NCBI GenBank assembly: GCA_913061345.1
Contig: CAJXTZ010000018.1
Span: forward strand, 1 to 33,757
Length of the DNA stretch: 33,757 nucleotides
Direction: 5' to 3'
Source: an uncultured Erythrobacter sp.
GTDB lineage: Bacteria > Pseudomonadota > Alphaproteobacteria > Sphingomonadales > Sphingomonadaceae
A model generated the notes under the pieces. The model saw only the letters and a list, made by a program, of their open reading frames with translations, did no database searches and was not told the origin of the DNA. Every line of letters starts with the position of its first letter. The first letter of the stretch is position 1. Of this stretch, positions 1,902-17,568 are shown piece after piece. The position numbers and the translations under genes are program-made.

Positions 1902-2020
1902 GGAGAAAGCTTATTGCCTTGAGATACGTGAAGAAAATACGGGTGGGTATTGGTTATCATTTATGCGAGACTTTTGATGACGGGGATGCGGGAATCCCGC
2001 CTCTGCGGCGTCTGGTTCAA
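1902..2020. promoter_or_regulatory. Divergent promoter region, flippase / glycerophosphotransferase
   Basis: This 119-bp stretch separates the flippase start from the preferred start of the plus-strand glycerophosphotransferase, and it is the only place where promoters for both could lie. A TATCAT hexamer near 1956-1961 is a possible plus-strand -10 element, which would favour the downstream start at 2021. No clear -35 partner or operator palindrome is visible, so exact sites are not claimed. Confidence 0.3.
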
Positions 2021-3259: not shown

Positions 3260-3861
3260 TCTCGCTAGCGTTGCTTGGGTCAGCCGCAGTTATCCTGATC
3301 ACTCTCGTCATACGGCTCGAGGCTTTCAAACGAGTGGACACCCGCCTGCTGGACTGGATACAGAGCGTGCTTCCCGAGAGTACGGGCAAAGCGCGGAAAA
3401 AAAGCGACACCATGATGCGCGATGTCACAGCGCTGGGGGGTGATACCGCGACCGTGATTGTCGCCCTTTCTGGATCCGCCACGCTACTTTCTCACGGTAA
3501 TAGCCTCTTGCTTCCGCCCTTCTTACTAACACTTGCAACAGGGCGCGTGGTCGGCTTGCTGCTTAAAAAATGGATCCAGCGACCGCGACCAAAGCAAGCC
3601 GGGCATGCGCTCGATATCTTCACAAGTAGTTTCCCCAGCGTCCATACGGCCATGGGCTTTGTTTCCAGCTTCGCAATTGTGTTCTTTCTCCTGTCGGCTG
3701 CTAGCGCGCCGTGGATAGCGCTTTCGATCGCATCAATTGTTTCTGCGCTTATCGGTACAACGAGGCTCTACTTTGCCATTCACTGGCCTCTTGATGTTCT
3801 TGCGGGATGGTTTGCGGGGCTCACGATAGCGGCGACATCCGCGTTTTTGCTGACCGGCTAG
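3250..3861 (+). CDS. PAP2-family membrane phosphatase
   Basis: A roughly 200-residue integral membrane protein with all three PAP2/acid-phosphatase signatures: KKWIQRPRP (K-x6-RP), PSVHT (the PSGH block with V for G), and the R-x5-HWPLD block near the C-terminus. The conserved histidines and aspartate for phospho-enzyme chemistry are present. Family members dephosphorylate undecaprenyl pyrophosphate, phosphatidic acid, phosphatidylglycerol phosphate or other lipid phosphates at the periplasmic face. ATG 3250 is taken as start; TTG 3241 is an in-frame alternative. Both lie inside the end of the preceding glycerophosphotransferase gene, implying one operon. Context suggests recycling of a lipid carrier or trimming of a phosphorylated glycolipid, but the substrate is not determined by sequence. 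Confidence 0.8.
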   Translation: MVLISLALLGSAAVILITLVIRLEAFKRVDTRLLDWIQSVLPESTGKARKKSDTMMRDVTALGGDTATVIVALSGSATLLSHGNSLLLPPFLLTLATGRVVGLLLKKWIQRPRPKQAGHALDIFTSSFPSVHTAMGFVSSFAIVFFLLSAASAPWIALSIASIVSALIGTTRLYFAIHWPLDVLAGWFAGLTIAATSAFLLTG

Positions 3862-3883
3862 TGCGGCTTTGCCGTGCGCGCGG

Positions 3884-3917
3884 CGTCTCTTTCGCAGGCA
3901 CCCCCTGTTTAGAGACG
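3884..3917. terminator. Inverted repeat, possible weak terminator or operator
   Basis: CGTCTCT at 3884-3890 is perfectly repeated in reverse as AGAGACG at 3911-3917 with a 20-nt loop. It sits between the PAP2 stop and the nucleotidyltransferase gene. There is no following T-run, so an intrinsic terminator is doubtful. Confidence 0.2.
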
Positions 3918-4002
3918 AACGATCCGCACAATCATCCCCAACCTGACAAGTGAAAAGCGCGTTCCGTCACATGCAAACGATGCGGAGGGTGGATGGACTG
4001 CT

Positions 4003-4788
4003 TTGCTGCTTGCCGGTCAACGTCCCGGGAAGGACCCGCTTGCCGCTGCATACGGAGAACGCTTCAAAGCGTTGATACCGATCGGTGGGAAGTCGATGGT
4101 GTGCAAGGTCACCGAGACACTGCTGGCGGTACCATCGGTGCGAAAAATCGTGGTCATGGCGCAAGACCCTGAGGCATTGCTGCTGGGTGACTTGGCCCCG
4201 TATCGTTCACACCCGCGTGTAGAGTTTCATGCGAGCGGGAATGGCATTGCGACGAGTATAAAGGAGCTCGCTGGCACCGGCACTGCTCCCTGGCCGGTTC
4301 TGGTAACAACCGCCGACCATGCACTTCTCTCGCGTTCGATGATCGAAACGTTCCTCGATGGAGCTGCGGGGGCTGACCTGTCGTTTGGTGTCGGCGAAAG
4401 AGCTGTGGTCGAAGCAGTTTACCCACAGACGAAGCGAACTTGGCTCAAGTTTTCCGACGGGCATTATTCGGGTGCCAACCTGTTCGCTTTTCGCAATGCC
4501 AAAGTTGTCCCTGCGCTCGATCTGTGGTCGGGTATTGAACAGGATCGCAAGAAAACCTTCAAAATCATTGGTTCCTTTGGTCCCAATCTTCTGCTCCGGG
4601 CGTTGACACGTTCGATCGGTTTCGGGGATGCGGTTCATCGCGCTGGGAAAAGGCTCGGCGTCATCGCGCAGCCTGTAGTATTGCCGCAAGCCGAGGCTGT
4701 AATCGATGTCGACAAACCTGACGACGTGGCCCTGGTCGAAGCGATCATCGCCTCCGCCAGGCAATGTGCCGAGAATAAGCAGGGGTAG
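4003..4788 (+). CDS. MobA-like nucleotidyltransferase (NTP transferase domain)
   Basis: The protein opens with the GT-A nucleotidyltransferase signature LLLAGQRPGKDPLA, then KALIPIGGKSM (metal and NTP binding), a TTADHALLS segment (equivalent of the D-x-D/H metal site, around residue 100) and a C-terminal VDKPDDVALVEA tail typical of cytidylyl- or other sugar/polyol-phosphate nucleotidyltransferases. It probably makes a CDP- or similar activated donor for the adjacent TagF-like and GT4 enzymes; that is inference from context. TTG 4003 is the first conventional start in frame. However, the family motif continues upstream (W-T-A directly precedes this codon), so the annotated N-terminus is almost certainly short by several residues. 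See the finding on a possible one-base loss near 3994. The GT4 gene starts 4 bp after the stop. Confidence 0.72.
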   Translation: MLLAGQRPGKDPLAAAYGERFKALIPIGGKSMVCKVTETLLAVPSVRKIVVMAQDPEALLLGDLAPYRSHPRVEFHASGNGIATSIKELAGTGTAPWPVLVTTADHALLSRSMIETFLDGAAGADLSFGVGERAVVEAVYPQTKRTWLKFSDGHYSGANLFAFRNAKVVPALDLWSGIEQDRKKTFKIIGSFGPNLLLRALTRSIGFGDAVHRAGKRLGVIAQPVVLPQAEAVIDVDKPDDVALVEAIIASARQCAENKQG

Positions 4789-4792
4789 CCGA

Positions 4793-5977
4793 TTGGCTGA
4801 TACGGGAGATGAATTGACAGCACTCGCAAGGCGCGGTCCGATTGTCCATTTTCTATATGAGCCCGGAGCCGGAGGACTTGACCGGGTGGCAATCCTATTG
4901 GCGAACGGAATGGCTGAGCGCGGCGTCGATACCGAACTCTGGCTTACCAGAACCAACGGTGCCTTGAGCGGGCTGATATCCGACAAGGTCGTCGTAAGAA
5001 GGGTGCCAGGTCCGAAACGGGGTGGTCGCGGCACTGCGTTGTTCGTACAAATTCCCGCATTGGCCAGAATGCTGCGCCAACACGCCCCAAGGGCAGTCTT
5101 TTCCGCGGGCAACCAAAGCAATTTGTCGATTGCCATAGCTCGAGCTCTGTCCGGACGTCGCGGCATCAAAATAATTCAGAAAATCACCAATCCCGTGATC
5201 CGTCCGGGGATGTCCGGGCTGTCAGCACGGCTTCGCACCTTGCGCTTTGAACGAACCGCCTTGGCCGGCGACCGGACCCTATGCCTGAGCGAAGCGGATG
5301 CCAGAGCGTGCCGAGCTGCGATGCCCCGTGCCGCCCCTCGTTTTCGCTCGGTCCGCAATGCTTATGTGACCAGCGCGATGATCGATCGAGGTCTGGCGCT
5401 TAAGACCAATGCTGGCTCAAAAATCGCTGGGCTGCTGTCCATAGGACGCCTCGCGCCACAAAAGGATCACGCGACCTTGCTAAAGGCTTTGGCCAAAGTA
5501 AGGCAAACGGAATGGTCGCTCGAAATTCTGGGTGGTGGCGAACTACGGCGCGAACTCGAAGAACTGGCAAGAGGCCTCGGCATAGATAGTCAGGTCTACT
5601 TCAGAGGGTTCGTCGATGACCCCTCTCTCCATTTCGGGAAGAGCGATATCCTCGTTCTTTCGTCACGATGGGAAGGGTTGCCAGCCGTTCCGCTCGAGGC
5701 AATGGCTTGCGGTTGCCAAGTGGTCGCGACCGATTGCTCTCCCGGCCTCACCGAAATTCTTCGCAGCTGCGGACAGGCTGTTGTTCCGATCGGGGATATC
5801 GATGCCCTGGCGCAGGCAATCGATCGCCAAATTTCCAGCGGCCCAGATTTCGGGCAGGGACGCGAGAAGGCTTCCGAATACTCCGTCGATTCATCGATCG
5901 ACGATCACCTTGCAGTCCTTACCGAACTCGGCGTCGATCCATTCTCTTTGCGACGTAAACTGCATTCTGAGTCGTAG
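4793..5977 (+). CDS. GT4-family glycosyltransferase
   Basis: A 394-residue GT-B glycosyltransferase. The N-terminal half has the acceptor-side loop FLYEPGAGGLDRVAILLANG (a GG-x-ERV equivalent). The C-terminal donor half shows SIGRLAPQKDH, LEILGGGELRRELE, VYFRGFVDDP, and the EX7E motif E-G-L-P-A-V-P-L-E in the WEGLPAVPLEAMACG segment. These fit retaining enzymes that use nucleotide sugars on lipid-linked acceptors at the cytosolic membrane face. The frame is open upstream within the previous gene. TTG 4793 is chosen because AGGGG at 4781-4785 is well placed as Shine-Dalgarno and the residues ahead of it look unlike the family. It ends inside the tail of the convergent permease gene (87-bp overlap). 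It probably works with the three plus-strand genes before it; the sugar is unknown. Confidence 0.8.
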   Translation: MADTGDELTALARRGPIVHFLYEPGAGGLDRVAILLANGMAERGVDTELWLTRTNGALSGLISDKVVVRRVPGPKRGGRGTALFVQIPALARMLRQHAPRAVFSAGNQSNLSIAIARALSGRRGIKIIQKITNPVIRPGMSGLSARLRTLRFERTALAGDRTLCLSEADARACRAAMPRAAPRFRSVRNAYVTSAMIDRGLALKTNAGSKIAGLLSIGRLAPQKDHATLLKALAKVRQTEWSLEILGGGELRRELEELARGLGIDSQVYFRGFVDDPSLHFGKSDILVLSSRWEGLPAVPLEAMACGCQVVATDCSPGLTEILRSCGQAVVPIGDIDALAQAIDRQISSGPDFGQGREKASEYSVDSSIDDHLAVLTELGVDPFSLRRKLHSES

Positions 5978-7060
5978 AAAGATTCGTTCAAGCCATCCAT
6001 CGACGAAACCTCTGCCCAGCCTATCTTCTGCACGAAGTAGCCAGACGGCGAGAGCAAGCCAGACCGCTGCTATCGCGAACGCAAATGCACTTGGGTTGCT
6101 GCCTACTCCTGTATCCAGCGGCGAAAGCATCTTCAGGCATGTGATGAGCGCAATAATCCCGAGGAAAAGTCCCATTGCGCTGGTCGACCGTTTGGGAGGC
6201 TTGCCAAGAACAAACGCCATAGCCGCAGACACCGGCACCAACAGCACCCAAAGCAAGCGGGCATAGGCAGCCGATCTGCTTTGCGCGGTGTCGGTCTTGA
6301 GCAGAGTATCCAGATCAGAGAACTTGGCCGAGGTGGATCCATCCGCAGTTTTGCTCTCCCCGGCTTTGTCGTGTTCACTGGCAAACTTCAATTGCGCAAA
6401 GCTGCCCGTCGAAAGACGATCCTCCTCAATTGTCTGCCCATTGCGAAGATCAAGCATAACCGATCCGTCGGATTGCAGCGAAAGCCGTCCGGCCTGTGCC
6501 GTGAAGGTCCTCCCGTTCGTTCTGAGGAATATCCCGTTGATGAACCGGCCGTCGGGTGCGACCGAGTCGAACCGCAGAATGCTGCCCTTGCCAAGATCAA
6601 TGAACTGTCCGGCGGCGAGGTTGTGCCCGAACTCGCCGGAAGCCATGCGTTCGCCAACGTCTTCGAGGCTCCTCTCGGCATCGGGCATCAGCCAGCCCTG
6701 ATTAAAAAGTGTAAGTCCGGCCACTACTAAGGTCATGACGATTGGAAGGCGCATCCAGCGCAACGGACCTATCCCGCTCGCTTCGATGGCATCGAGTTCG
6801 CCGCGCAGGACCAATTTGCGAACAAGCAATGCCAGTGCAAGATAGAGGCCCACCAATAAGCCTATCCCGCCATATTCGGGAAGCAGACCGGCAAGACTTT
6901 GTGCGACGACATAGCCTCGGCTTCCGGAGAAGCGGGCCAGTTCAATCAGGCTTGGCAAATGCTCTAAGGTCATGAGCGACATGACAATCGCAAAAACCGC
7001 CGCAAACGCGGAAACTGTCTGCTTGGCAATATACCGATCAAGTGTACCATGAACCGGCAT
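5891..7060 (-). CDS. LptF/LptG-type permease (YjgP/YjgQ family), orphan copy
   Basis: About 389 residues with three N-terminal membrane helices, a large periplasmic beta-jellyroll domain (roughly 120-270) and three C-terminal helices, the exact plan of LptF/LptG. The helix-2/3 connection RKLVLRGELDAIEASGIGP matches the cytoplasmic coupling helix that touches the LptB ATPase. Normally LptF and LptG are encoded side by side and extract LPS from the inner membrane. Here only one copy sits at the end of a glycolipid-type operon, suggesting a dedicated or alternative lipid cargo (inference). ATG 7060 lies 11 bases beyond the upstream GT4 stop; the longer frame to 7120 would overlap that gene. The charged C-terminal tail overlaps the convergent GT4 gene by 87 bp. 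Confidence 0.8.
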   Translation of the reverse strand: MPVHGTLDRYIAKQTVSAFAAVFAIVMSLMTLEHLPSLIELARFSGSRGYVVAQSLAGLLPEYGGIGLLVGLYLALALLVRKLVLRGELDAIEASGIGPLRWMRLPIVMTLVVAGLTLFNQGWLMPDAERSLEDVGERMASGEFGHNLAAGQFIDLGKGSILRFDSVAPDGRFINGIFLRTNGRTFTAQAGRLSLQSDGSVMLDLRNGQTIEEDRLSTGSFAQLKFASEHDKAGESKTADGSTSAKFSDLDTLLKTDTAQSRSAAYARLLWVLLVPVSAAMAFVLGKPPKRSTSAMGLFLGIIALITCLKMLSPLDTGVGSNPSAFAFAIAAVWLALAVWLLRAEDRLGRGFVDGWLERIFLRLRMQFTSQREWIDAEFGKDCKVIVDR

Positions 7061-7070
7061 CGCGCGCCTA

Positions 7071-8231
7071 TCAGGCTGCCCGGTCCCGGCGCGTTGGGAG
7101 GAATTGCGCATAATGGTCAAACAGGGCTGCGAAATGACGCTCCATGTCGCCGCAGACCGAAATCGTGCGTGACAGCCACATTTCCGCCTGGAACTCGTCG
7201 AGCGCGCGACGCAAATCTGCCATATCGGCTGCGCGGTAGCTCATCCCCGCTCCCCCGCGGGCGAAGTCTGAAGCTCCGCCGGTGTCCGGAACGATAACCG
7301 GAATTCCGCTCGCGTTCGCTTCAGCCGCGACCATTCCGAACGTTTCTGCTTCGCACCCATGGACGAGCGCATCACAGCTGGCGAGAATGGCGGCAAAATG
7401 GCTCCGGTCGCCAACATTCCGAAACAAGCGAATGTGGGGATTGCCCGAGATGGCGCGCATAATGGTGCGTTCTTCTCGTCCTTCCCCGAATATGACCATA
7501 CCGACGGAACGGTTGCGGCCAGCCATTGTGACGGCCTCGACGAGCATTGGGATCCGTTTTTCCGGCGCGAGGCGCCCAGCAGCGATCAGGAGAGTAGCAT
7601 CGTCTTCCAATGCACATTCAGCGAGCAATCGCGAACGGATGGCTGGTTCGCGGTGTTCTGGCGAGAAAATACCGCTATGTACTCCCATCGGGAGGGTAAC
7701 GGCATTGCCCACGCCGCCCGCCGCAAGTCGGCTGCGCAAATCGTCGTTCGCGCAAATAACGGTATCAAACACAGCTCCCAGGCGGCGAAGGTGCGCCCAG
7801 AAAGCCTCGCACTGACGATCGATTGTCGCCCGGTCCAGCATCGCCCCGAACCAGCGATAGGCATAGGCGGACAGAGGGTCCGCATGCATCACCAGTGACT
7901 TGGGCACGTCCGGTCGCCATTTCGCCACGAGTGCGGGACTTCGCCAGGGTGACGAGACTTCGACCAAATCAGGGCGCAGAGCATCGAGTGTCTTCATTAA
8001 GTGCGCATCGTCCGAAAAATACCAATACTTGCGGTCCAGAGGAAATCGGGGTCCCGGAATTGTAATTATCCGGGCATTTTCAGCGCGGGTTTCGATCCGG
8101 TGTTCGTCGCCGGGTGCGAGTATAGTTATCCTGTGCCCAGTCTTGCCTGCCATCTCGAGCTTCTGGTCGATATAGGTCTTCACGCCGCCGCCCCGCGGGG
8201 AGTAAAATGCGCAGACATCGACGATGTGCAT
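7071..8231 (-). CDS. GT4-family glycosyltransferase
   Basis: A 386-residue GT-B enzyme. It starts with MHIVDVCAFYSPRGGGVKTY, whose GGG-V-x-T-Y loop is the classic GT4 acceptor-domain start, and has VMHADP and MGVHSGIFSP in the linker. The donor domain shows AAGRLAPEKR, VIFGEGREE, and an EX7E motif within CEAETFGMVAAEA. This pattern resembles mannosyl- or glucosyltransferases acting on phosphatidylinositol-like or sphingolipid acceptors, but the sugar cannot be assigned. It starts four bases after the DUF2141 stop and ends 10 bp before the LptF/G-type gene, so it is firmly inside the ten-gene run. The inferred role is extension of a membrane glycolipid in the cytosol before export. Confidence 0.82.
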   Translation of the reverse strand: MHIVDVCAFYSPRGGGVKTYIDQKLEMAGKTGHRITILAPGDEHRIETRAENARIITIPGPRFPLDRKYWYFSDDAHLMKTLDALRPDLVEVSSPWRSPALVAKWRPDVPKSLVMHADPLSAYAYRWFGAMLDRATIDRQCEAFWAHLRRLGAVFDTVICANDDLRSRLAAGGVGNAVTLPMGVHSGIFSPEHREPAIRSRLLAECALEDDATLLIAAGRLAPEKRIPMLVEAVTMAGRNRSVGMVIFGEGREERTIMRAISGNPHIRLFRNVGDRSHFAAILASCDALVHGCEAETFGMVAAEANASGIPVIVPDTGGASDFARGGAGMSYRAADMADLRRALDEFQAEMWLSRTISVCGDMERHFAALFDHYAQFLPTRRDRAA

Positions 8232-8235
8232 GATG

Positions 8236-8766
8236 TTAGCGAGCTCCCGGTAGCGGTTTCATCCCGCCAAGGCCGCGAAAGTAATTCAGCACAATCGTCG
8301 TCCTGGTCGGGCCGGTCCCTGCAGCAGTGCTGGATTGGGCCGCATTCGGCTGGCTCCGCCCCACTTCTGGATTGCCCGCGAATCCGATGCCGTCCCTTCG
8401 CCAGTCGAATTTGCGATTGCTGTTCCTGTCGTGAAGCAGGATAACCGCATACCTGCCGGCCGAGGGGACACGGACACACAGATTGACTGCGCCCGATTGC
8501 GGTACATTCACCTCGACGCGGCGGAAGGTCTTCCCCGCAGAAATCAGGATATTGTCGTCTGCGAGAAAATCCTCGTCATTGGCTGGATAGACTTCGAGTT
8601 TCAGTTTCCCCGTGCGGTCCTTCAGACCGACGACAGAGACAAGAAAGGACGGTCCACGCTCATTCGTCCGGCATCGTCCCTCAGCCTTGCCGAGATCCGG
8701 GGTGGAGGGAATGGTCGCCGCCACGAGCAGCGGCATGGCGAGAAGGCTAAGCATCGGCAATTTCAT
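8236..8766 (-). CDS. DUF2141 secreted protein
   Basis: A 176-residue protein with a clear signal peptide (MKLPMLSLLAMPLLVAATIPS). It then has a single beta-rich domain holding the DUF2141 hallmark: LKLEVYPANDEDFL, a strand with VPSAGRYAVILLHDRNSNRKFDW, and DGIGFAGNP. The acidic DxNxNxKxD stretch in this family looks calcium-binding-like. No biochemical role is known to me for DUF2141; members are exported and often sit next to membrane lipid or carotenoid genes. The start ATG lies 20 bp inside the upstream UPF0104 gene, and the stop is four bases before the next GT4 start, so expression is coupled to both. Confidence 0.8.
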   Translation of the reverse strand: MKLPMLSLLAMPLLVAATIPSTPDLGKAEGRCRTNERGPSFLVSVVGLKDRTGKLKLEVYPANDEDFLADDNILISAGKTFRRVEVNVPQSGAVNLCVRVPSAGRYAVILLHDRNSNRKFDWRRDGIGFAGNPEVGRSQPNAAQSSTAAGTGPTRTTIVLNYFRGLGGMKPLPGAR

Positions 8767-9682
8767 CAGACTCTCTCATGAAAACATCGTTGATCGCGCA
8801 CACGGCACCGACCAGCAGGTGTGCAATAAGGATCAGGGCAGCCATGGCTGTCATGAGCGCCGCCACCTCGACGTCATTTCCAAGGACGAGGATGGCAACG
8901 CCTGCAAAAACCACATCCTTGTTCGGCACGAAGGGGAGGCGTGAAATGAGCAAGCGAATTGTGGCGAGAACGAACCAGAGCGCGATTGGTGATGATGGAA
9001 TGGCGAGATGCCAGAGCGCGGCGGACAAGGCGACCGAGGCAACTATCCGCGCGACCTGCATGGCAAAAATGAACGTCAACTCGCTCCGTTCGAGCGAGAA
9101 GATCGACCGGCGAAAAAGCAGCATGGCAAATGAGGTTGCGATCACCAAGCCGAAGGACCAGGTGATGGCACCCGCGTGTTCGTGGACCGGAAGCAGATCG
9201 AGATAGGGATAAGCAATCAAGAGGAACATCAGTGTCATGATGTTGCCGGCGATTGCAGAAAGGAGCACCAGATCTTTTACCGCACCGAAGGGCGCTGTAA
9301 CGAAACCCAGTCTCTTGCGTGCCCAACCGTAGAAATAGACTTCGCCGAGATAACCTAAAAGCAACTCATTATAGATCAGCTTGCGGATCAGTGCACCGAA
9401 TGCGTGGGCTCCGACGTTCCAAACGCGGCGAAACACGATCCACTCGCTCACCGGGCCGATAAGGTATGAAACAATGAAAAGCAGCCAAAATAGCGGCGAG
9501 GCCGGGACAATATCGACGACCTCCGCGATCGACAGCGTTCGCATTTGATAGAGCGCCGTCGCAAGAACGAGCAATGACAGGACCATGCCTGCCGCGCCAG
9601 ACCAACTCAGCCTGTGACGACGATCGTGTGGTTCAAGAACCAAGCTGCTCGAAGGAGCAAGCGCGAGTGCTTGATCGGACAT
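8747..9682 (-). CDS. UPF0104 / lysylphosphatidylglycerol-synthase-like membrane protein
   Basis: A 311-residue integral membrane protein with about eight hydrophobic helices and no soluble catalytic domain. It fits the LPG_synthase_TM (UPF0104) family that includes the flippase half of MprF and AglD-type proteins. Visible landmarks are the VSEWIVFRRVWN segment, the YNELLLGYLGEVYFYGW motif (residues about 105-122), and the late RLLISRLPFVPNKDVVFAG segment, all typical of UPF0104 proteins. MprF homologues move or modify polar lipids, so a role in glycolipid translocation or polyprenyl-glycan transfer is plausible here (inference). ATG 9682 is chosen because it falls 29 bp after the upstream GT4 stop and has AAGG upstream. 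The frame extends to 9775 but that would overlap the GT4 end. Confidence 0.7.
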   Translation of the reverse strand: MSDQALALAPSSSLVLEPHDRRHRLSWSGAAGMVLSLLVLATALYQMRTLSIAEVVDIVPASPLFWLLFIVSYLIGPVSEWIVFRRVWNVGAHAFGALIRKLIYNELLLGYLGEVYFYGWARKRLGFVTAPFGAVKDLVLLSAIAGNIMTLMFLLIAYPYLDLLPVHEHAGAITWSFGLVIATSFAMLLFRRSIFSLERSELTFIFAMQVARIVASVALSAALWHLAIPSSPIALWFVLATIRLLISRLPFVPNKDVVFAGVAILVLGNDVEVAALMTAMAALILIAHLLVGAVCAINDVFMRESDEIADA

Positions 9683-9711
9683 AAGAGCGCCTTGATCGTT
9701 GCTGACATGGA

Positions 9712-10878
9712 CTAGACGCTGCCCTCGCGCCATTCCCGCACCATGGCGCGCATGCGAGCGAAGTTTCTTCCACAATGGCGGGCGGCAACGGATTCCATGA
9801 GAACGCGATATTCGGCACTGGCAGCGCGAAGAGTGAACTGCGATGCGAAACCGGCCATTGCCGTGCGCGGGGGATCGAGATGCCGAGCGAGGTTCATTGC
9901 CAGGCCCAGAGCATCGGCGTCCCGGCGTGGAGCCAATACACCGAAAGCCTCGTCCTGTAGCAGCCAGCGCATGCTGGCGCAGCAGTCGGTCGCGGCAATG
10001 GGAAGACCCGCAGCCAGTGCTTCAAGGATTACGGCCGGAACGCCTTCGTAGTCTGAAGACAGAACGAACACGTCCGCCTCGTGCAGGAGATCGTCCACCG
10101 CATCGGTATGTCCGACAAAGCGTACGCGCCCGTCAAGATTCAACCTCGCGGTCAGCTTCTTCAAAGGCTCGTATTCGGGACCGTCGCCTGCAATCGTCAG
10201 CGTGTCGTTGGGCCAGCCATGGGCTGCGAAGGCTTCGAGCGCGAGGCCAATATTCTTCTGCGCAACCAGCCGTCCGACCGAGAGAAACCGGGACGCGGTC
10301 GACTTCGGTGAGCTTGGGCTGCGTGATGGTATGGTAATCTGTGCTTCGTCAAGCGCGGGATCGGGAATGACGCTCGTACGATTGTGTGTGACCTTGAGCT
10401 TCTCTCCGAGCTGCGGTCGCATCGGTTCTCCGATCGCTACGAATTGATCGAGAAATAAACCCTGCAAGCGCAACCAGAAGCAGTACAATACGCGCACAGA
10501 CCGAGGGAAATCCGGCCGCTCGAGGTCATTGCTGATCTTTACGAGGCAGGGAGGGCAGCTCCGCGCGAGGAGCAGACGCATGGCAACACAAACGACGGTG
10601 TAGGTATTGCCCGGACAGAAAATGACGTCGACCCGGTTGCGGCAAAGGAAGCGCCAAAGCGACCAAATCATCCAGAGGGTTTCCCAGCGCGCGGTCGGCA
10701 GCGGCTGAGCCAGAGTGTGATAGGTAAGCGAAGATCCTGGAGGACGGCATGCGCCCTCGTCGCGCCCGAGGACAATTTCGACCTCATCTCCCGCGTCTTG
10801 CCAGGCACCCGCCAACCGCAACGCAACGCGTTCGACGCCGCCCGGTTCGAAACTGTGGATCGGTATCGCTATCCGCAT
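9712..10878 (-). CDS. GT4-family glycosyltransferase
   Basis: A 388-residue GT-B enzyme beginning MRIAIPIHSFEPGGVERVAL, with the PGGVERV acceptor loop. The donor half carries LSVGRLVAQKNI, LTIAGDGPEYEPL, VRFVGHTDAVDDLLHEADVFVLSS, and the EX7E motif E-G-V-P-A-V-I-L-E. This is a textbook retaining GT4. Its closest relatives by pattern are N-acetylgalactosamine/glucosamine and hexose transferases acting on lipid acceptors, but no donor specificity can be read from sequence. ATG 10878 gives the canonical N-terminus; the frame is open nine codons further. It follows the deacetylase gene by 44 bp, a pairing that suggests the deacetylase trims an acetamido sugar added by one of these transferases (inference). 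Confidence 0.82.
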   Translation of the reverse strand: MRIAIPIHSFEPGGVERVALRLAGAWQDAGDEVEIVLGRDEGACRPPGSSLTYHTLAQPLPTARWETLWMIWSLWRFLCRNRVDVIFCPGNTYTVVCVAMRLLLARSCPPCLVKISNDLERPDFPRSVRVLYCFWLRLQGLFLDQFVAIGEPMRPQLGEKLKVTHNRTSVIPDPALDEAQITIPSRSPSSPKSTASRFLSVGRLVAQKNIGLALEAFAAHGWPNDTLTIAGDGPEYEPLKKLTARLNLDGRVRFVGHTDAVDDLLHEADVFVLSSDYEGVPAVILEALAAGLPIAATDCCASMRWLLQDEAFGVLAPRRDADALGLAMNLARHLDPPRTAMAGFASQFTLRAASAEYRVLMESVAARHCGRNFARMRAMVREWREGSV

Positions 10879-10922
10879 GGATGCCAGACGCTCCGCGAAG
10901 CACAAAACCGCATCAAGGAAGT

Positions 10923-11669
10923 CTAGAATAGTAGATCTGTATAGCGCCCAGGTCGCCTGTTTTTTGCAAACGCGGCAAGGGTATGGTCAATGCTGTCAAT
11001 CAGCTCAGGCTTGGTTGTATCCCCGGGATGCACCGCAATCCTGACGGTACTCAAGGGTCGGAGCAAGGTTCGAGCCGCTGCCGCGAAGGCGATCGATGAC
11101 GCGGTCCGTACGCTCGACCTGCTGGCCCAGGTGACAACCGGTCCACGTGCCAGAACAGCGCCAGTATCCGGCCGCCAGACCTTCATGTGATCTTCCGCCA
11201 GAGCGAATTCGCTTTTGCCCAACGCGTCCATAGCACCTGGCCCATAAAGCCAGGCCGGCGCGATAAAACCTGCAACCTCGCGCCCGATGATATCTTCGAT
11301 GAGCGCCTTGCCGTCATCCATGCGGCGCGCGGCTTCGGCTGCGTCCAAACCGAGGAACTCGCCCTCGCTCGCGGTCATGAACCGTGCCTTGAGCGCACGC
11401 GCGCCGGTATGCGCAGCAATGTCGCGATGATACCATCCATGCACGAACATCTCGATCCCGCTGTCGGCCCATCCACGCAAACGGGTGGCAAAGGCGGAGT
11501 GCCGCTCCAGAGGATTTTCGCCCCAGTGGTCGGGCACGACAAGCATGGCGAAGCGCGCGCTCCCCAGATGCGTGGCTAGCAGATCGACGAGCTGGTCCAC
11601 CTGACGCCCGAAGGCGGGACCGACGTCGTGAATTGAGGTGAGCAGGCGCGGCCTGCTAGAATCTGACAT
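10923..11669 (-). CDS. DUF2334 polysaccharide-deacetylase-fold protein
   Basis: A 248-residue protein with the NodB-like (CE4-related) fold of DUF2334. TSIHDVGP near the N-terminus supplies the metal or catalytic aspartate, FVHGWYHR at about 74-82 gives the two metal-binding histidines, and GFIAPAWLYG plus HPGDT supply the later active-site blocks. There is no signal peptide or membrane helix, so it should work in the cytosol, unlike most cell-wall deacetylases. That fits deacetylation of a cytosolic-face glycolipid intermediate. Its ATG lies 14 bp inside the end of the TonB-receptor gene, implying translational coupling between receptor and enzyme, which is unusual. Substrate unknown; family call strong. 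Confidence 0.8.
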   Translation of the reverse strand: MSDSSRPRLLTSIHDVGPAFGRQVDQLVDLLATHLGSARFAMLVVPDHWGENPLERHSAFATRLRGWADSGIEMFVHGWYHRDIAAHTGARALKARFMTASEGEFLGLDAAEAARRMDDGKALIEDIIGREVAGFIAPAWLYGPGAMDALGKSEFALAEDHMKVWRPDTGAVLARGPVVTWASRSSVRTASSIAFAAAARTLLRPLSTVRIAVHPGDTTKPELIDSIDHTLAAFAKNRRPGRYTDLLF

Positions 11670-14043
11670 CTACGCCAAGCCTGATGGTGCGCGGTCGCAG
11701 CGGCGTTCTCTGGTTGCCTGCAGCCAGCGAGAAGGGATTGCCATAAGAAAATCGGTTGGCGCGGCTATCGAGGACATTGTCTATGTCGAGCGAAACTCCC
11801 CAGGCGCCAAGCTCTGCACGGGCACCCGCTGCTGCTTCGAGGTAATCGCCCTGCGGAAACTCGAATGGCTGCCCAATTGCGAGGTAGGAGGTCCCCGTAT
11901 AGCCGAGTGATCCGTTTATGGAGAGCGGGACGTCCCCGAGGTACGGCTCGTAGATTGCGCTAACTCTCCAGCCGCTGTCGGCAATATTCGGGAGGTCGCG
12001 CTCATCGGCATTTGCGAATGCCGGTTCGGGATCATCGAGATGGCTGGTGGCAAGAAATCCGGATGCCTCGAGAGTCAGCCTATCGACGGGCTTCCAGCTC
12101 AGATCGAGCGAAGCGTAGCGTACATATCCCGCTCCGACGTTCGCGACATAGGGAAATCCGCCGCGCGACACGAGATCTGCCTGGACGTCGTTCCACCGGG
12201 TATAGGAAAAGGTCGCTCCCCCGCTCAGTCGCGCGCCGCGCCGGGTCCCAAAGCGCGCACCCAGCTCGATCGTGCGCAGTTCGTCTGGCTCAAAACGCGA
12301 GGCCGATGCCTCATCGCCGGTGCCGATGAGTTGCAAGGCGCCCGGCCTGAACCCTTCCTGATAGCGGCCGTAGACAATCGTTCCTGCAGCCGGTTTCCAT
12401 GCAATCGCTGCGGTCGGCAGGAACCGGACTGACTTTTGCTTTGGTTCCAGATCGACGGTGTCGAATGGCGCTGCAAACTCTTCGATCTGGCGAATGTAAG
12501 AAAGACGTCCGCCAGCCGTCACCGACAGCCGGGGCGCGATCTCCAGGCTTGCTTCACCGAAGAGAGCTGCATCGAAAGTTTCCGAGCGGATCGAGGTGAA
12601 CTCATCGGGCTCGCTGCCGCCACCGAGCGCGCGTTCGATATTGTTGATGTTGCGCGCTGCAGAAATCCCGGCCACCCAGCTCGATACGGGACCGAACGAG
12701 CCGGAAACCCGCGTTTCATGCGTTATTAGCGACACCTTGACGTCTTCCTCGAAGCGCAGCGGGTCAGGCGTACCCTCAGGTGTCGCGTCGAATACGGTGT
12801 CGATGGCGTGATCAACCCAAGAGGTGTTGGTGACCAGTTCGACGTCCCCGAACCCACCTTGGCCGGTGACAAAAGCGAGCCGGTAGTCATTGGCAAAGGG
12901 TTGCGCGATACGCGAACGTCTGGCCAGCACCGATCCCGGCAAGTCAGTGTATTGGCTGTCTCGGCTGCGGGTGTTCTGCCCCACGACCCCGATATCGAGC
13001 AGGAAGTTGTTGGCAGGCTCCAGGCGCACGGTTGCGCGCAGGCCAGCTATGGTCGTCCGGTTAACATCCTCGACCTGCCTCTCGAGATCATCGATATATC
13101 CCGGGCGCCGGATCCCGTAGGCGACAAACCGCGCCGCAGCTCTATCGTTGACCGGAATATTTGCCATGAGGGCGATATCGCCGCCCGCCGATGCGCCAGT
13201 CAGTGTGGGACCGAACACGCCCGCAAACTCAGTCGCACCGATTTCGGGATTGCGAGCTTGGGTCCGGATCACACCGCCAAGCGAACCTGCGCCGTAGAGC
13301 GTGCCTTGTGGCCCTTCGACGATCTCGACCGTTGCCACGTCGTAGAGCGCCAGATCGGGGTCGGGCGCACTGTAGGTGAGCCGGCTTTCGCCGAGGTACT
13401 GGCTGATTGTCGATTGCGTCTGACCGTTGAAGCTGCTGTCTGCCACGCCGCGAATAAATATCTTGTTTCGCCCCGAACCCAGGCTCGTTGACGATAAGTT
13501 GGGCAATTCGCGCAGCACGAGTTCGCTTCCGCGACCGCCAAAGCGCATACTCTCGATCAAATCGAAATCGGCAACCTGGATAGAGCCTGGATAGTCGGCC
13601 AAAGCCGCATTCTGTTTGGAGGCGGTCACCACAATCGGCGGAGGGGGCGGCAGTGGCTCTGGTCGTGGCGCGACAACGGGCCGTGCGGCAGGCGGAGCTT
13701 CTCGCCGACGCGCTGGTGCTGTCCGCGTCGATGGCGTGCGCGCTCGAAACACTCGTACAACGCCACTCGAGGACAGCGTAAACCGGTAGCCCGTGCCATC
13801 AAGCAGTTGTCGCAGGCCGCCGCGCACCGTGCAGCGGCCATTTAATCCCCTCACCCGGATCGCGCGCAGGTCCGGATTATCGACATCGATCGATACGCGC
13901 GCCTGCCGGGCGAAACTGACCAAGGCACGATCGAGCGAGCTTGCCGGGATGTCGAAACGGACGAGCTGCGATGCGGCTACGGGCGGCGCAAAAGCTACAC
14001 AGGCGGCGATGACGCCCGCGCCCGACAAGGTTCGCAAACTCAT
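11656..14043 (-). CDS. TonB-dependent receptor with N-terminal STN signalling domain
   Basis: A 795-residue outer-membrane receptor. Residues 1-24 are a signal peptide (cut after VAA-S or nearby). Residues about 28-98 form an STN/secretin short domain of the FecA/FpvA type that contacts FecR. Residues 110-136 are an unusual Arg/Pro-rich linker ending in a run of prolines. IVVTASKQ is the likely TonB box region. The plug spans about 150-270, with IFIRGVADSSFNGQ and VEIVEGPQGTLYGAGSLGGVI. The rest is a 22-strand barrel ending in the terminal phenylalanine typical of Omp85-inserted barrels. ATG 14043 overlaps the fecR stop in ATGA, and the stop overlaps the deacetylase start by 14 bp. The ligand is not evident: no siderophore-specific signature is visible. 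It probably senses or imports the compound that triggers the sigma factor. Confidence 0.85.
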   Translation of the reverse strand: MSLRTLSGAGVIAACVAFAPPVAASQLVRFDIPASSLDRALVSFARQARVSIDVDNPDLRAIRVRGLNGRCTVRGGLRQLLDGTGYRFTLSSSGVVRVFRARTPSTRTAPARRREAPPAARPVVAPRPEPLPPPPPIVVTASKQNAALADYPGSIQVADFDLIESMRFGGRGSELVLRELPNLSSTSLGSGRNKIFIRGVADSSFNGQTQSTISQYLGESRLTYSAPDPDLALYDVATVEIVEGPQGTLYGAGSLGGVIRTQARNPEIGATEFAGVFGPTLTGASAGGDIALMANIPVNDRAAARFVAYGIRRPGYIDDLERQVEDVNRTTIAGLRATVRLEPANNFLLDIGVVGQNTRSRDSQYTDLPGSVLARRSRIAQPFANDYRLAFVTGQGGFGDVELVTNTSWVDHAIDTVFDATPEGTPDPLRFEEDVKVSLITHETRVSGSFGPVSSWVAGISAARNINNIERALGGGSEPDEFTSIRSETFDAALFGEASLEIAPRLSVTAGGRLSYIRQIEEFAAPFDTVDLEPKQKSVRFLPTAAIAWKPAAGTIVYGRYQEGFRPGALQLIGTGDEASASRFEPDELRTIELGARFGTRRGARLSGGATFSYTRWNDVQADLVSRGGFPYVANVGAGYVRYASLDLSWKPVDRLTLEASGFLATSHLDDPEPAFANADERDLPNIADSGWRVSAIYEPYLGDVPLSINGSLGYTGTSYLAIGQPFEFPQGDYLEAAAGARAELGAWGVSLDIDNVLDSRANRFSYGNPFSLAAGNQRTPLRPRTIRLGVDVRF

Positions 14044-15029
14044 GGTTGGACGATCCACCGATCTCCGTTCGGCTCCACTGTGAGATCAAGCAGCTGCTCA
14101 AGTCGAATCCGGATTTGCTCGTGTCCGCCGTGCGTCTGGATCACCCCTGAAAACAGCCGATCGCGCAACAATGGCGAGAACTCGACTGTTAGCCCGGTGG
14201 CACGCGAAATGTCCGCCCCAATTTCGGCAAGCGGTGCATCCTCGTAGACGAGCATACCGTCGGTCCAGCTTCCCATGGCATCTACGTTCTTCTCGAAGAA
14301 AGCGATATTGTTGCCGGCATCGACGCTTAACCCCTCGCCTGCTTCAAGTTCTATCGTGCGAGTAGCGCCTTCGAAACGGACGGCGCCTTCAGACACTTCG
14401 AGTTCTAGCTGGCCGGCGGCCCTCGAAAGGTTGAATATGGTACCGATATCGACAAGGCGGCGTCCCGCGACCTCGACAATGAACGGGTTCGCTTCGTCGT
14501 GAACAATAGTGAACTGTGCTTCCCCTTCAACCAGCTCAGCAGTCCGCGGGTCATTACGGTCAAGGATAACCGACGTGCCGCCGTTGAGGACGATCTCGCT
14601 GCCATCGGCAAGGGCAATCGTGCGCGTCTCTCCGGGGCTAGTTTCGAGGGTATACGAAGTCGGCCCGGTGAGGACCTGCGTGGTAAACAGTGCAGCGAGG
14701 GCAACCGTTGCAGCAATTGTCGCCCAAACCCAGCGGCGCGAGACCAGAGGCGGAGCTGTCCAATCGTGGACTGAATGGTCGAGCGGGCTCTGGTCGGTGA
14801 CTTCGAGAGTTTCGCCGGTCGCAGCGCGATATTCGGGAAAAGCGACCTGTGAGATCACCGGCTGGAGCCGGGCGTCATTGTCGACAACCCAGTTGTAGGC
14901 ATCGTCATGGACGGGATCGGCCTCGAGCCACTCGGTAAAGCGCATCCAGGCATCGTCATCGCCGTCACGAAGCCTGATATGCCAAGCGGTAGCCTGGTCG
15001 AGAACGTCGGCGTCAAACGGGTTGTTCAT
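14040..15029 (-). CDS. FecR-type anti-sigma factor / sigma regulator
   Basis: A 329-residue single-pass inner-membrane protein. Residues about 13-46 are the cytosolic DUF4880 sigma-binding segment (WHIRLRDGDDDAWMRFTEWL...HDDAY). One membrane helix lies at about 100-118. Periplasmic residues 124-225 are the FecR domain with TRTIALADGSEIVLNGGTS, and the C-terminal 260-329 is the STN-like region that receives the receptor signal. This is the full FecR architecture. It shares ATGA overlaps with the sigma gene upstream (15029-15026) and with the receptor gene downstream, so the three proteins are made together. The family either holds the sigma factor inactive or helps activate it on receptor signalling; direction is not decidable from sequence. 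Confidence 0.88.
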   Translation of the reverse strand: MNNPFDADVLDQATAWHIRLRDGDDDAWMRFTEWLEADPVHDDAYNWVVDNDARLQPVISQVAFPEYRAATGETLEVTDQSPLDHSVHDWTAPPLVSRRWVWATIAATVALAALFTTQVLTGPTSYTLETSPGETRTIALADGSEIVLNGGTSVILDRNDPRTAELVEGEAQFTIVHDEANPFIVEVAGRRLVDIGTIFNLSRAAGQLELEVSEGAVRFEGATRTIELEAGEGLSVDAGNNIAFFEKNVDAMGSWTDGMLVYEDAPLAEIGADISRATGLTVEFSPLLRDRLFSGVIQTHGGHEQIRIRLEQLLDLTVEPNGDRWIVQP

Positions 15030-15601
15030 CGGACCGGACCCTCCTCGCCGGACTCAACGTCGGCATCGAGTTTGTCTCTCAACACCAGCAAGGTCCGATA
15101 GGCACGCTGCAAGTGTTTCTCGACCGCGCTCAGGCTGATCTCCATGGTTTCGGCAATCGATTTTTGAGTGCAGCCCTCGATCCGGTGGAGTCTAAGAATC
15201 TCCGCGGTACGCGCCGGCATGCCCGCAAGCAGCGCCTCAGCTTCCCGTACCTCCTGCCGCAGAATGGCGATATCTTCTGGCGATGGATTTGGATCGCGGT
15301 CGAGGTCAAGCCCGAATGAGCTGCGGGCCCAGCGATCGTCGCGAGCTTCCTGTCGCTGGCGCCCGCGCCTTGTGTCATGCAGAAGATTATTGCTCATTTG
15401 GAAGATATAGGCGCGCGGATTGGCAACTGGACCGGTGTGGACATTTGCCAGCTTCACAAACAAGGACTGCAAGAGATCGTCGACATCGGCAGGAGCGCAG
15501 CGGCGGGCGAGAAGGAAGCGCTGCAATTCCGGGCGCATATTGTGTGCACACCGGATCAGGCCCGTTTCGCCTTCGGATCGCAGAGGTTCGCCGGTCGACA
15601 T
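15026..15601 (-). CDS. FecI-like ECF sigma-70 factor
   Basis: A 191-residue ECF sigma factor with only regions 2 and 4. Region 2 (about 15-82) has RRCAPADVDDLLQSLFVKL and NPRAYIFQMSNNLLHDTRR. Region 4 (about 125-180) has LLAGMPARTAEILRLHRIEG and the helix-turn-helix KSIAETMEISLSAVEKHLQRAY. The DL-x-Q-x-x-F-x-K and NPRAY motifs place it with the FecI/iron-responsive group. ATG 15601 is picked for its strong AGGAAAGG Shine-Dalgarno; the frame stays open to 15682, inside the upstream gene. Its stop overlaps the fecR start in ATGA. It should direct RNA polymerase to the receptor operon on ligand binding. Target promoters could not be found by eye. Confidence 0.88.
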   Translation of the reverse strand: MSTGEPLRSEGETGLIRCAHNMRPELQRFLLARRCAPADVDDLLQSLFVKLANVHTGPVANPRAYIFQMSNNLLHDTRRGRQRQEARDDRWARSSFGLDLDRDPNPSPEDIAILRQEVREAEALLAGMPARTAEILRLHRIEGCTQKSIAETMEISLSAVEKHLQRAYRTLLVLRDKLDADVESGEEGPVR

Positions 15602-15678
15602 ACCTTTCCTATAGGGAATGGCGTGTCCAACTGGCAACGACGAGAAGTCGCTGGGTTCAATACTTGTCGCTGCGCCCA

Positions 15679-16398
15679 TCAAAAACGTTCGCCAATGGTG
15701 ATGCGCGCAACGAGTTCAGAAGAAAATTTCGGCGTTCGCGACCTTTCTACTTCGAGGCCAAGCTTTCGGCTTTGTCCGAGAACTTCGTTCGCCAAGCGGT
15801 ATTCGGCACAAAGGAGTACGCCGGCTCGGGCTCGGTCCTCGTGGTTGGCTATTCTGTTCGCCATATCGGGAACGTGTCCGGGCTTCCAACCGCCGTGATC
15901 GAACAAAGAAATAGTGTAGCTGCCATAGCCGGACGGGTCGGCACGCAAGAAAAGGGAAGCCTGCCTGGCATGGGTCCTGCGCGTTAGAAGCGCGCCCGAG
16001 CGTTCCCGGCTGGCAATTTCCCCAAGCATTACGCCCGGAGAAAGAGTCAGTTCTGGCTCAAGCTCTAGATCGTAGCTTGCCTCGGCAAAGGCCAAGCGGC
16101 GGAGCATTCGCACCGGCCCATAGTACCGATCCGATCGTCTCCCGACGCTTTCTCGGCGAAGCACGATCCGGACGATATCAGCCTCTCCGGAATGCACCCC
16201 TGTGTGGGGTTTTTTCTTCAGGGCTGCTGTGTCGCCTACGAGCGCCTCGATTTGCTCCCGGACGTCGTCTTCGGTCTGAAACGCCCGGGCAAGAGTGTCC
16301 TCGTCTCGGGCACGGTCTTGTGCCCAACCCGGTTGCGCGAGGCATGCGCAAAGCGACCCGAGGCCCAAAGCAATGGTTTTGCCAATTTGCAGGTTCAT
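15679..16398 (-). CDS. Secreted protein of unknown function heading the sigma operon
   Basis: A 239-residue protein that I do not recognise. It has a good signal peptide (start MNLQIGKTIALGLGSLCAC, ending around PGWAQ), then a charged helical stretch (about 27-65) and a mixed region with paired strands. Cysteines are few and there is no lipobox, membrane anchor or known catalytic motif. It is the first gene of the minus-strand run and sits 77 bp upstream of the sigma gene, so it may be co-transcribed with, or controlled by, the ECF system. ATG 16398 is chosen for the signal peptide; an upstream start at 16488 would prepend an unlikely sequence. A periplasmic sensor or co-regulator is a guess. 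Confidence 0.55.
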   Translation of the reverse strand: MNLQIGKTIALGLGSLCACLAQPGWAQDRARDEDTLARAFQTEDDVREQIEALVGDTAALKKKPHTGVHSGEADIVRIVLRRESVGRRSDRYYGPVRMLRRLAFAEASYDLELEPELTLSPGVMLGEIASRERSGALLTRRTHARQASLFLRADPSGYGSYTISLFDHGGWKPGHVPDMANRIANHEDRARAGVLLCAEYRLANEVLGQSRKLGLEVERSRTPKFSSELVARITIGERF

Positions 16399-16536
16399 GA
16401 GGCGGCCTCTCGTCTCCGGACGTTCCAGTGCTTGATAGGACGCCGCGGGAGGTTGTGACCCGCACAAGCGACGAAAGTGCGGGATCATGCAGCGAGCGGC
16501 GTCTTGTTTGCACGAGCTGCCGGTACAGGAACCCCA
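16399..16536. promoter_or_regulatory. Divergent control region with inverted repeat
   Basis: This 138-bp region lies between the start of the minus-strand sigma run and the plus-strand phosphodiesterase, so it should hold both promoters. It contains a perfect 7-bp inverted repeat, CCCGCAC at 16459-16465 and GTGCGGG at 16477-16483, with an 11-bp spacer and TGA/TCA extensions offset by one base. It could be an operator or a leader hairpin. No convincing -35/-10 pair was seen for either direction. Confidence 0.35.
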
Positions 16537-17568
16537 ATGTCCGCGACAAAGTTATTGACGCTTCTGTGCGCCGCGCTGGTATTGAGCGCGCCCGTTGCCC
16601 CCCACCAGCCCTATTCGAGCGCCCCGCAGAGCTATTCCGACTGGCCAATGGAAGATGAAGGACTGTCGATCCTTACCTACAATGTGAAGGGCCTGCCTTG
16701 GCCTGCAGCCATTGGCAGGGATGATGCACTGTCGGCGATCGGAGAGCGACTATCGTTGATGCGAGAGCGGGGCGTGCAGCCTCACATAGTGCTCTTGCAG
16801 GAAGCATTCACAAAGGACGCCGAAGCGATAGGCGCACTTGCAGGCTACAAATATGCCGTGCGCGGACCATCTACACGGGCGCACCTCTCGTCCCCTCCGC
16901 TGGGGCAGCAATTTGCAGAAGAGGCGCAGTGGTCCAAGGGGGAAACAAGCGATCCGGTCGTCAACAGCGGATTGGTAATCCTGTCGGACTTCCCCATCGA
17001 GCGGACAAAAACTCTCGCCTTTCCGGATGGTGCTTGCGCGGGTTTCGACTGCCTTGCCACAAAGGGTGCGGTGATTGCCTGGGTCGATGTCCCCGGCTTC
17101 GATGCCCCGCTTGCGATAGCAAACACACATCTCAACTCGCGACGCTCCACACATGTATCGAGACGGCGCGCTGATGAGGCGTTTGCCTGGCAATCGGCTG
17201 CCATTAGCAATTTTATCCAGTCCGAAGTTCAACCCGGAGAGCCAATCATATTCGGCGGCGACTTCAATGCAGGTAACGCCGCGCCGAGACGCGCAGCGTT
17301 CGAAGCCAACTTGCCTTTGGGCTCTCTCCAGGAAGACGCGCTCGAAGAGGCTGTTGCGAACGAAGTGATCCTTCTATCTTCACGAACCATCGCTAAAGAC
17401 ATGATCGAGCGTAACCGCGACAAGATCCTCTATCGCTCGGGTTCCAGGACAAGGATCACACCTCGCCTCGCATGGGTACCGTTTGGCGAGGAGGGAAAAG
17501 CCGCTCCCATGTCAGACCATAAAGGTTTCATAGTGTCAGTCGATTTGTCGCAATCTGCATTCCAATAA
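16537..17568 (+). CDS. Secreted endonuclease/exonuclease/phosphatase-family enzyme, sphingomyelinase-like
   Basis: A 343-residue exported member of the DNase I-like superfamily. Residues 1-22 are a signal peptide. The metal and catalytic residues are all in place: ILTYNVKGLPW (Asn about 49), LLQEAFT (Glu about 89), IANTHLNS (Asn/His about 196-198), FGGDFNAG (Asp/Asn about 242-244) and MSDHKGF (Asp/His about 327-328). The absence of DNA-binding loops, the secretion signal and the SDHKGF ending fit the sphingomyelinase-C / inositol-phosphatase side of the family, which hydrolyses lipid phosphodiesters. ATG 16537 has AGGA at good spacing. It is divergent from the sigma-controlled glycolipid run, so a role in turnover of phosphosphingolipids or in phosphate scavenging is possible (inference). 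Confidence 0.72.
   Translation: MSATKLLTLLCAALVLSAPVAPHQPYSSAPQSYSDWPMEDEGLSILTYNVKGLPWPAAIGRDDALSAIGERLSLMRERGVQPHIVLLQEAFTKDAEAIGALAGYKYAVRGPSTRAHLSSPPLGQQFAEEAQWSKGETSDPVVNSGLVILSDFPIERTKTLAFPDGACAGFDCLATKGAVIAWVDVPGFDAPLAIANTHLNSRRSTHVSRRRADEAFAWQSAAISNFIQSEVQPGEPIIFGGDFNAGNAAPRRAAFEANLPLGSLQEDALEEAVANEVILLSSRTIAKDMIERNRDKILYRSGSRTRITPRLAWVPFGEEGKAAPMSDHKGFIVSVDLSQSAFQ

Follow-up and report, generated by a model that had tools for sequence, protein, structure and literature searches.

A cell-surface-signalling trio recurrently linked to a putative amino-sugar lipid cassette in Erythrobacter and related bacteria

The window analysed here is the whole of a 33,757-nt stretch of DNA from an uncultured Erythrobacter sp. 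(assembly GCA_913061345.1, contig CAJXTZ010000018.1, positions 1–33,757, forward strand). It holds a ten-gene run in which a FecI-like sigma factor, a FecR-type regulator and a TonB-dependent transducer stand next to genes resembling a lipid-modifying cassette, and we consider it probable that the locus forms a regulon governed by cell-surface signalling (CSS) and producing an amino-sugar membrane lipid. The signalling half of this reading rests on gene order and on a recurring promoter-like motif, and the enzyme steps rest on homology and predicted fold. Surface signalling through TonB receptors is mainly tied to iron and nutrient uptake and, to our knowledge, little is known about the control of regulated amino-sugar lipid modification in Gram-negative bacteria. 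The features of the locus, with the short names used below, are as follows (ECF, extracytoplasmic function).

16537..17568, plus strand: EEP, sphingomyelinase-C-like phosphodiesterase (PF03372), signal-peptide-like start, divergent from the operon
16478..16503, plus strand: promoter-like TGCGG-N17-CGTC for EEP, 33 nt before the ATG
16439..16464, minus strand: promoter-like TGCGG-N17-CGTC for the operon, 40 nt before the SEC ATG
15679..16398, minus strand: SEC, predicted small outer-membrane beta-barrel (structure model), signal-peptide-like start
15026..15682, minus strand: ECF sigma factor, FecI-like (PF04542, PF08281); listed start TTG, ATG at 15679
14040..15029, minus strand: FecR-type anti-sigma/sigma regulator with DUF4880 (PF04773, 6e-15; PF16220, 4e-7)
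11656..14058, minus strand: TonB-dependent transducer with STN, plug and barrel (PF00593, PF07715; STN by comparison with the PDB)
10923..11669, minus strand: DEAC, DUF2334 deacetylase (PF10096), GpgD-like, putative D of an SDF (synthase-deacetylase-flippase) module
10887..10912, minus strand: internal promoter-like TGCGG-N17-CGTC for GT4a, ending 8 nt upstream of the ATG
9712..10878, minus strand: GT4a, second GT4 glycosyltransferase (PF00534, 3e-28), ATG at 10878
9715..9740, minus strand: weaker promoter-like TGCGG-N17-CGTC for UPF, within the 3′ end of GT4a, coding constraint possible
8747..9682, minus strand: UPF, MprF-like lipid flippase by predicted structure, putative F of the SDF module
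8236..8766, minus strand: DUF2141 protein (PF09912, 7.5e-17), signal-peptide-like start
7071..8231, minus strand: GT4b, GpgS-like glycosyltransferase (best NCBIfam match NF053787), putative S of the SDF module
5891..7120, minus strand: LptF/LptG-type permease paralogue (PF03739, 1e-32)

Results

The ten open reading frames (ORFs), 5891–16398, all lie on the minus strand, and with families assigned by Pfam and NCBIfam their order is the one given in a preliminary description of this DNA. The ATGA overlap of the sigma and FecR genes and the 14-bp overlap of receptor and deacetylase genes reported there were both recovered. A second ATGA overlap, between FecR and receptor, holds if translation of the receptor begins at the ATG that is codon 6 of the listed ORF, whereas the GTG start gives −19. 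The later gaps, put at −20 to +44 bp in that description, are DEAC to GT4a +44, GT4a to UPF +29, UPF to DUF2141 −20 and DUF2141 to GT4b +4; GT4b to LptF is −50 from a TTG start, with in-frame ATGs farther downstream. A terminator or promoter separating the receptor from the deacetylase gene had been set beforehand as the finding that would count against coupling; nothing terminator-like was seen at that junction, and the promoter-like site that does exist, between the deacetylase gene and GT4a, has the operon's own motif, which argues for common control. Between 5600 and 17700, 9 terminator-like sites were found against 11.7 ± 3.3 in shuffled sequences, which is no excess, and 4 sigma-70-like sites against 3.8 expected, one of them within the deacetylase gene. 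With counts no higher than in shuffles, an intrinsic terminator or sigma-70 promoter splitting receptor from deacetylase was rejected. No RNA element reached its gathering score.

The sigma factor has both regions 2 and 4 (PF04542, PF08281; Sigma70_r4_2, 9e-14), and the regulator combines a FecR domain with DUF4880, as in CSS systems (PF04773, PF16220); DUF4880 is the anti-sigma part of FecR. The STN domain of the receptor scores 25.9 bits, below Pfam's cut-off of 28.4, and receptor residues 25–108 match the solved signalling domains of FpvA, PupB, HasR and FecA in the PDB. The receptor resembles siderophore/heme transducers. Judged by these domain matches, the three genes are a typical CSS trio.

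Recurrence of the trio beside the cassette was assessed in a main set made up of the best 80 of 107 loci retrieved with the window's own protein, which is biased to close relatives, and in an overlapping even sample taken to counter that bias, in which the deacetylase model found a match in 25 of 196 genomes of the order. Two pairs of loci have identical deacetylases (L061/L091, L070/L090). The core cassette is common among the main set. Among the 83 scorable loci, defined by at least 6 kb of upstream DNA, 20 have a same-strand FecR gene within 6 kb upstream of DEAC, against 0.35 expected (about 0.4%) from a background of one FecR per 712 kb (227 in 161.7 Mb, 36 genomes); chance adjacency is thereby ruled out. 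In the even sample the trio is present in 6/25 loci (L005, L087, L088, L094, L099, L102), where 0.11 would be expected and where L086 and L090 (2/25) are so short in upstream DNA that a trio could not show.

The second finding that had been set to count against coupling was that trio and glycolipid genes are never neighbours in related genomes; they are neighbours in many of them. One locus, L102, shows the full order EEP-SEC-trio-DEAC-GT4a-UPF-DUF2141-GT4b-LptF, and L013 of Novosphingobium sp. Leaf2 has the window's layout but for LptF. Elsewhere the trio sits between LptF and DEAC (L009, L012), precedes UPF-DUF2141-GT4b-DEAC (L030), or is separated from DEAC by EEP (L065, L066, L069, L072). 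Trio and cassette stay linked despite the reshuffled order. In a tree of 103 deacetylase rows the trio label changes 10 times, at least 3 of these forced by well-supported branches, against 20.1 in shuffles, and the trio is an option that has been gained or lost repeatedly. Where it is absent, 20 representatives of the genes upstream of DEAC or flanking the cassette were named by Pfam; most encode unrelated enzymes, the others including MMPL transporters and a different TonB receptor, and these 20 included no alternative regulator.

A motif, TGCGG-N16/17-[AC]GTC, was read from intergenic DNA and has the form of an ECF −35/−10 pair. The passages covered of a study of Sinorhizobium meliloti describe ECF promoters with GGAAT and CGTC, which makes the motif's form a usual one for ECF sigmas, and report that none was found for the FecI of that species (PMC6180224). 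The EEP and SEC sites stand back to back, 13 bp apart, in the 138-bp intergenic region. Per-gene counts were made in 25 trio loci, including L008, where only the tail of the receptor is present, and L071 and L073, whose trios are more than 8 kb away. An exact site was found upstream of GT4a in 12/23, EEP in 9/15, DEAC in 6/25, UPF in 6/24, sigma in 3/23, FecR in 3/24, SEC in 1/3 and GT4b in 1/22, and none upstream of the receptor (0/25), DUF2141 (0/22) or LptF (0/7) in these loci. The corresponding figures for 78 trio-less loci are 1/43 for GT4a, 2/78 for DEAC, and 0/74, 0/58 and 0/71 for UPF, DUF2141 and GT4b. Scored with a leave-one-locus-out weight matrix, which keeps close relatives in its training set, 14/24 GT4a, 11/16 EEP, 5/25 DEAC and 6/25 UPF upstream regions of trio loci exceed 99% of the null, against 1/43 GT4a, 2/78 DEAC and 0/74 UPF regions of trio-less loci.

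The spacing is the strongest control on this motif. In the windows upstream of EEP, DEAC, GT4a and UPF in 26 trio loci (the 25 above and L133), a spacing of 17 occurs in 27/90 and of 16 in 5/90, every other spacing from 8 to 27 occurs in 0–2 of the 90, and spacing 17 occurs in 3/195 windows of trio-less loci. With letters permuted, 199 controls reached 0.26 on average and never more than 3, compared with 24 for TGCGG-N17-CGTC. At the time the pattern was set, L012 was the one locus in which the motif had been noted before GT4a, which makes the remaining 11 GT4a sites an independent check. At the level of loci, an exact site at DEAC, GT4a or UPF was found in 15/22 with a trio and 2/59 without (Fisher 2e-9, ignoring kinship), 22 of the 103 rows being left out of this comparison (L008, L071, L073 and 19 others with too little DNA upstream).

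A separate site precedes DEAC in L066 and L072, in which EEP lies between it and the trio, and also in L071 and L073; in L069, likewise interrupted by EEP, a site was seen by eye before a SEC-like ORF between EEP and DEAC, and in L065, of the same arrangement, no site was found. The split cassettes of L009 and L012 have a site before both the sigma gene and GT4a. Such a pattern would be expected if the linked sigma factor controlled these genes in common.

Turning to the proteins of the cassette, the nearest described counterpart is GpgSDF of Pseudomonas aeruginosa, in which a lipid GT4, a deacetylase and a UPF0104/MprF-like flippase for glucosamine (GlcN)-phosphatidylglycerol (PG) are likewise encoded together (PMC12713373, in the passages covered). 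The GpgS and GpgD models are the best NCBIfam matches of GT4b and DEAC. For DEAC, NF053788 is the sole match at E 0.01 (134 bits, cut-off 280), and residues H14, D15, H77 and H81 are kept in 103/103 rows; the GpgD cut-off is exceeded in 0/196 genomes of the order. GT4b matches NF053787, N-acetylglucosamine (GlcNAc)-PG synthase, at 177 bits (next match 56; cut-off 480). The label UPF0104 used in the preliminary description has no backing from the sequence models of Pfam or NCBIfam, Foldseek by itself found nothing confident for this protein, and no relation to five PF03706 proteins emerged from a profile comparison; in VIA-align its predicted structure matches that of the MprF flippase and so supplies an MprF/UPF0104-like flippase such as GpgSDF has. 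These matches suggest that the cassette resembles a described SDF amino-sugar lipid module and may work like GpgSDF, with a class assignment that stops short of membership.

The permease exceeds the Pfam cut-off (PF03739, 113.7 bits) and falls below that of the NCBI LptF equivalog (149.9 against 230), and is read as a paralogue for that reason. A scan of 7 genomes showed a third LptF/G copy only in the two with LptF in the cassette. The first gene of the run had been called a secreted unknown: SEC does have a signal-peptide-like start, and is now modelled with modest confidence (pLDDT, the predicted local distance difference test score, 71) as a small outer-membrane barrel, membrane barrels being matched via VIA-align and no confident match being given by Foldseek alone. 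Eight ORFs at the equivalent place in relatives share 14–24% alignment identity with it.

The association reaches past the span first described, to the divergent EEP gene, whose listed ORF begins at a GTG at 16477 with an ATG at 16537 and whose secretion signal was judged by eye. A profile of 16 relatives matched sphingomyelinase C in the PDB (4.6e-17), where the sequence by itself found no match, and N49, E89, H198, N200, D242, N244 and SDH 326–328 are invariant in those relatives. Its score against the sphingomyelinase C equivalog TIGR03395 is 29.5 bits, below the cut-off of 248.2. EEP therefore appears to be a distant sphingomyelinase C relative with a conserved active site. It was matched in 15/25 trio loci, and was not seen in L032 and L049 despite about 6 kb of DNA upstream of the sigma gene.

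Discussion

The preliminary description suggested that an outside signal may set envelope composition, and gene order, recurrence and the shared ECF-type motif all support this. In the scheme that we propose, a ligand outside the cell would bind the TonB-dependent transducer, the STN domain would signal to FecR, and FecR would free the ECF sigma factor, which would act at three TGCGG-N17-CGTC sites: that of SEC, and with it the trio and cassette, that of EEP, and the internal one ahead of GT4a. GT4b would then attach GlcNAc, on the cytosolic side, to a lipid, perhaps PG or a glycosphingolipid, and deacetylation by DEAC would expose a free amine; a further sugar may come from GT4a. UPF, as an MprF-like protein, would then flip the lipid, the LptF paralogue, DUF2141 protein and SEC barrel may carry or accommodate it toward the outer membrane, and EEP would cleave phosphodiesters outside. 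On a broader proposal we are evenly divided, namely that in sphingomonads of several families surface signalling through TonB receptors acts as a switch for the charge of the membrane lipids, with one ECF sigma and several near-identical promoters making the amino-sugar lipid, flippase and exporter, barrel and secreted lipid-cleaving enzyme appear together when an outside molecule is sensed. That molecule might perhaps be released by EEP, or be an envelope-active compound of a competitor.

Several observations weigh against the proposal of a CSS regulon for an amino-sugar lipid. Five of the 9 exact motif matches in the window lie away from these genes, and the loci used to test the motif include some from which it had been derived. 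The exact site is missing at DEAC, GT4a and UPF in 7/22 trio loci (L019, L032, L049, L065, L067, L069, L088) and present in 2/59 trio-less ones (L095, L098), and a phylogeny-aware pair test has 3 independent pairs on well-supported branches and is underpowered. Among unlinked trios, of which the 13/28 with long flanks were scored, 2/13 carry the motif before FecR, and the motif may belong to a wider FecI-type group. Both equivalog tests, for GpgS and for GpgD, failed by the scores given above. Finally, about three quarters of the scorable loci are without a nearby trio, from which it follows that lipid synthesis does not need the trio.

It is possible, although we do not favour it, that the same regulon makes an extended glycosphingolipid and not GlcN-PG: GT4b and DEAC would put GlcN on glucuronosyl-ceramide, GT4a would add the next hexose and the LptF paralogue would export products like the GlcN-containing glycosphingolipids GSL-3 and GSL-4A of sphingomonads. 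Oligosaccharide glycosphingolipids with free GlcN occur in these bacteria, a longer headgroup would suit the second GT4 and the LptF paralogue, and GT4b and DEAC score under half of the GlcN-PG cut-offs. HexSDF of Clostridioides difficile shows, in the passages covered, that SDF modules can work on other lipids (PMC10128005). Against this, the best-scoring characterised families are GlcNAc-PG enzymes, and GT4a was matched in 43/78 trio-less loci, some of them short in DNA, so that a second sugar is not fixed.

The regulon might serve a different purpose, scavenging, which we think rather unlikely to be the right one. Here EEP would cleave outside phospholipids, the receptor would take up or sense a product, and the modified lipid would shield the cell from its own enzyme. 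The resemblance of EEP to sphingomyelinase C, its conserved active site, its matching promoter-like site (9/15) and its position adjoining the operon or between trio and DEAC all fit such scavenging; its patchy occurrence (15/25 trio loci, and not seen in L032 or L049) does not.

That the trio serves ordinary nutrient uptake, with the adjoining cassette a passenger and its internal motifs inherited or accidental, is improbable: the receptor is like siderophore/heme transducers and the cassette-linked receptors cluster on a tree of 39 (2 label changes), but adjacency is far above chance, linkage survives reshuffled gene orders and occurs in two separate receptor lineages, perhaps a third (L088), and the sites within the cassette are spacing-specific with varied spacer sequence. 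In that tree, for which unlinked receptors were drawn solely from the best matches to the window receptor, the 23 linked receptors fall into the two lineages plus L088, on a long, unsure branch, with two unlinked receptors among them.

CSS with an output other than uptake, and SDF modules under linked signalling, are already known. The locus shares with Fec-type FecI/FecR/FecA systems an ECF sigma, a FecR with DUF4880 and a TonB receptor with STN; it differs from them, as far as the covered passages of a CSS review go, in that the genes that follow look lipid-modifying and not uptake-related and that trio and targets form one run (PMC9249621). Those passages describe no lipid output. PUMA3/VreAIR of P. 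aeruginosa is likewise a CSS system with an output other than iron uptake, but in the parts covered its receptor is without a beta-barrel and its targets are potential virulence factors and a secretion system, not lipid synthesis (PMC2729926). On the lipid side, GpgSDF is set apart by what is extra here (GT4a, DUF2141, the LptF paralogue, SEC and the leading trio), and the covered part of its source describes no FecI/FecR-type regulator (PMC12713373). HexSDF with HexRK likewise pairs a synthase-deacetylase-flippase set, for an aminohexosyl lipid, with dedicated linked signalling; according to the passages covered, it differs in its two-component control, its proposed acceptor, hexosyl-diradylglycerol, and its Gram-positive host (PMC10128005). 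In the covered passages of a survey of sphingomonad TonB transporters FecI, FecR and glycosyltransferase are absent, and its tables place several TonB transporters under 'lipid transport and metabolism' (PMC7142613). No literature joining CSS with lipid-modifying genes was found in one open-licence full-text library, and within that library the earlier statement that no system of such content has been described holds; glucosaminyl phosphatidylglycerol is named in one paper there.

If the proposal is correct, we know of no earlier CSS system dedicated to membrane lipid composition, and the locus would join surface signalling and amino-sugar lipid modification, which are separate fields in the literature searched. 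It supplies a specific promoter that can be tested and delimits a candidate regulon, and the ligand could be found via any compound that fires the promoter. It is also relevant to the way in which sphingomonads adapt their unusual envelopes.

Additional observations

The GT4a site stands 8 nt before the ATG, the same distance to the aligned start is found in L005, L008, L009, L094 and L102, and such a distance would suit a leaderless transcript. Trio-less locus L098 has exact sites before DEAC and GT4a (9570–9595 and 10499–10524); regulation in trans found no support for it, as the three FecR loci examined from its genome show no site close before their genes. In two other trio-less loci an MMPL-family transporter lies immediately upstream of the deacetylase gene (L041, 13–2565; L079, 7383–9986), and in L004 (6944–9874) that place is taken by a different TonB receptor of 976 aa with no STN match, accompanied by neither a sigma nor a FecR match.

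In L005 (174–7657) two FecI/FecR/receptor trios flank EEP on opposite strands, and the two FecR relatives at this locus equal in number the FecR matches of the whole genome. L088 (genome G115) combines a distant deacetylase (43%) and an LptF relative with a trio of another receptor lineage, and is possibly an independent pairing. L133 (4912–14290, genome G220) is a second cassette, GT4a-UPF-DUF2141-GT4b, followed by EEP and a trio (45–56% identical), with motif sites present; no deacetylase gene was seen in its 20 kb, that of G220 being in a trio-less cassette (L100).

Beside LptF, positions 564–5977 of the window hold a further envelope cluster, comprising a flippase-type Polysacc_synt protein, a PAP2 phosphatase, a MobA-like nucleotidyltransferase and a third GT4, together with a protein weakly resembling CDP-glycerol glycerophosphotransferase. 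A relative of the gene for the last of these (38–42%) also adjoins the cassette in L011, L019, L032 and L051.

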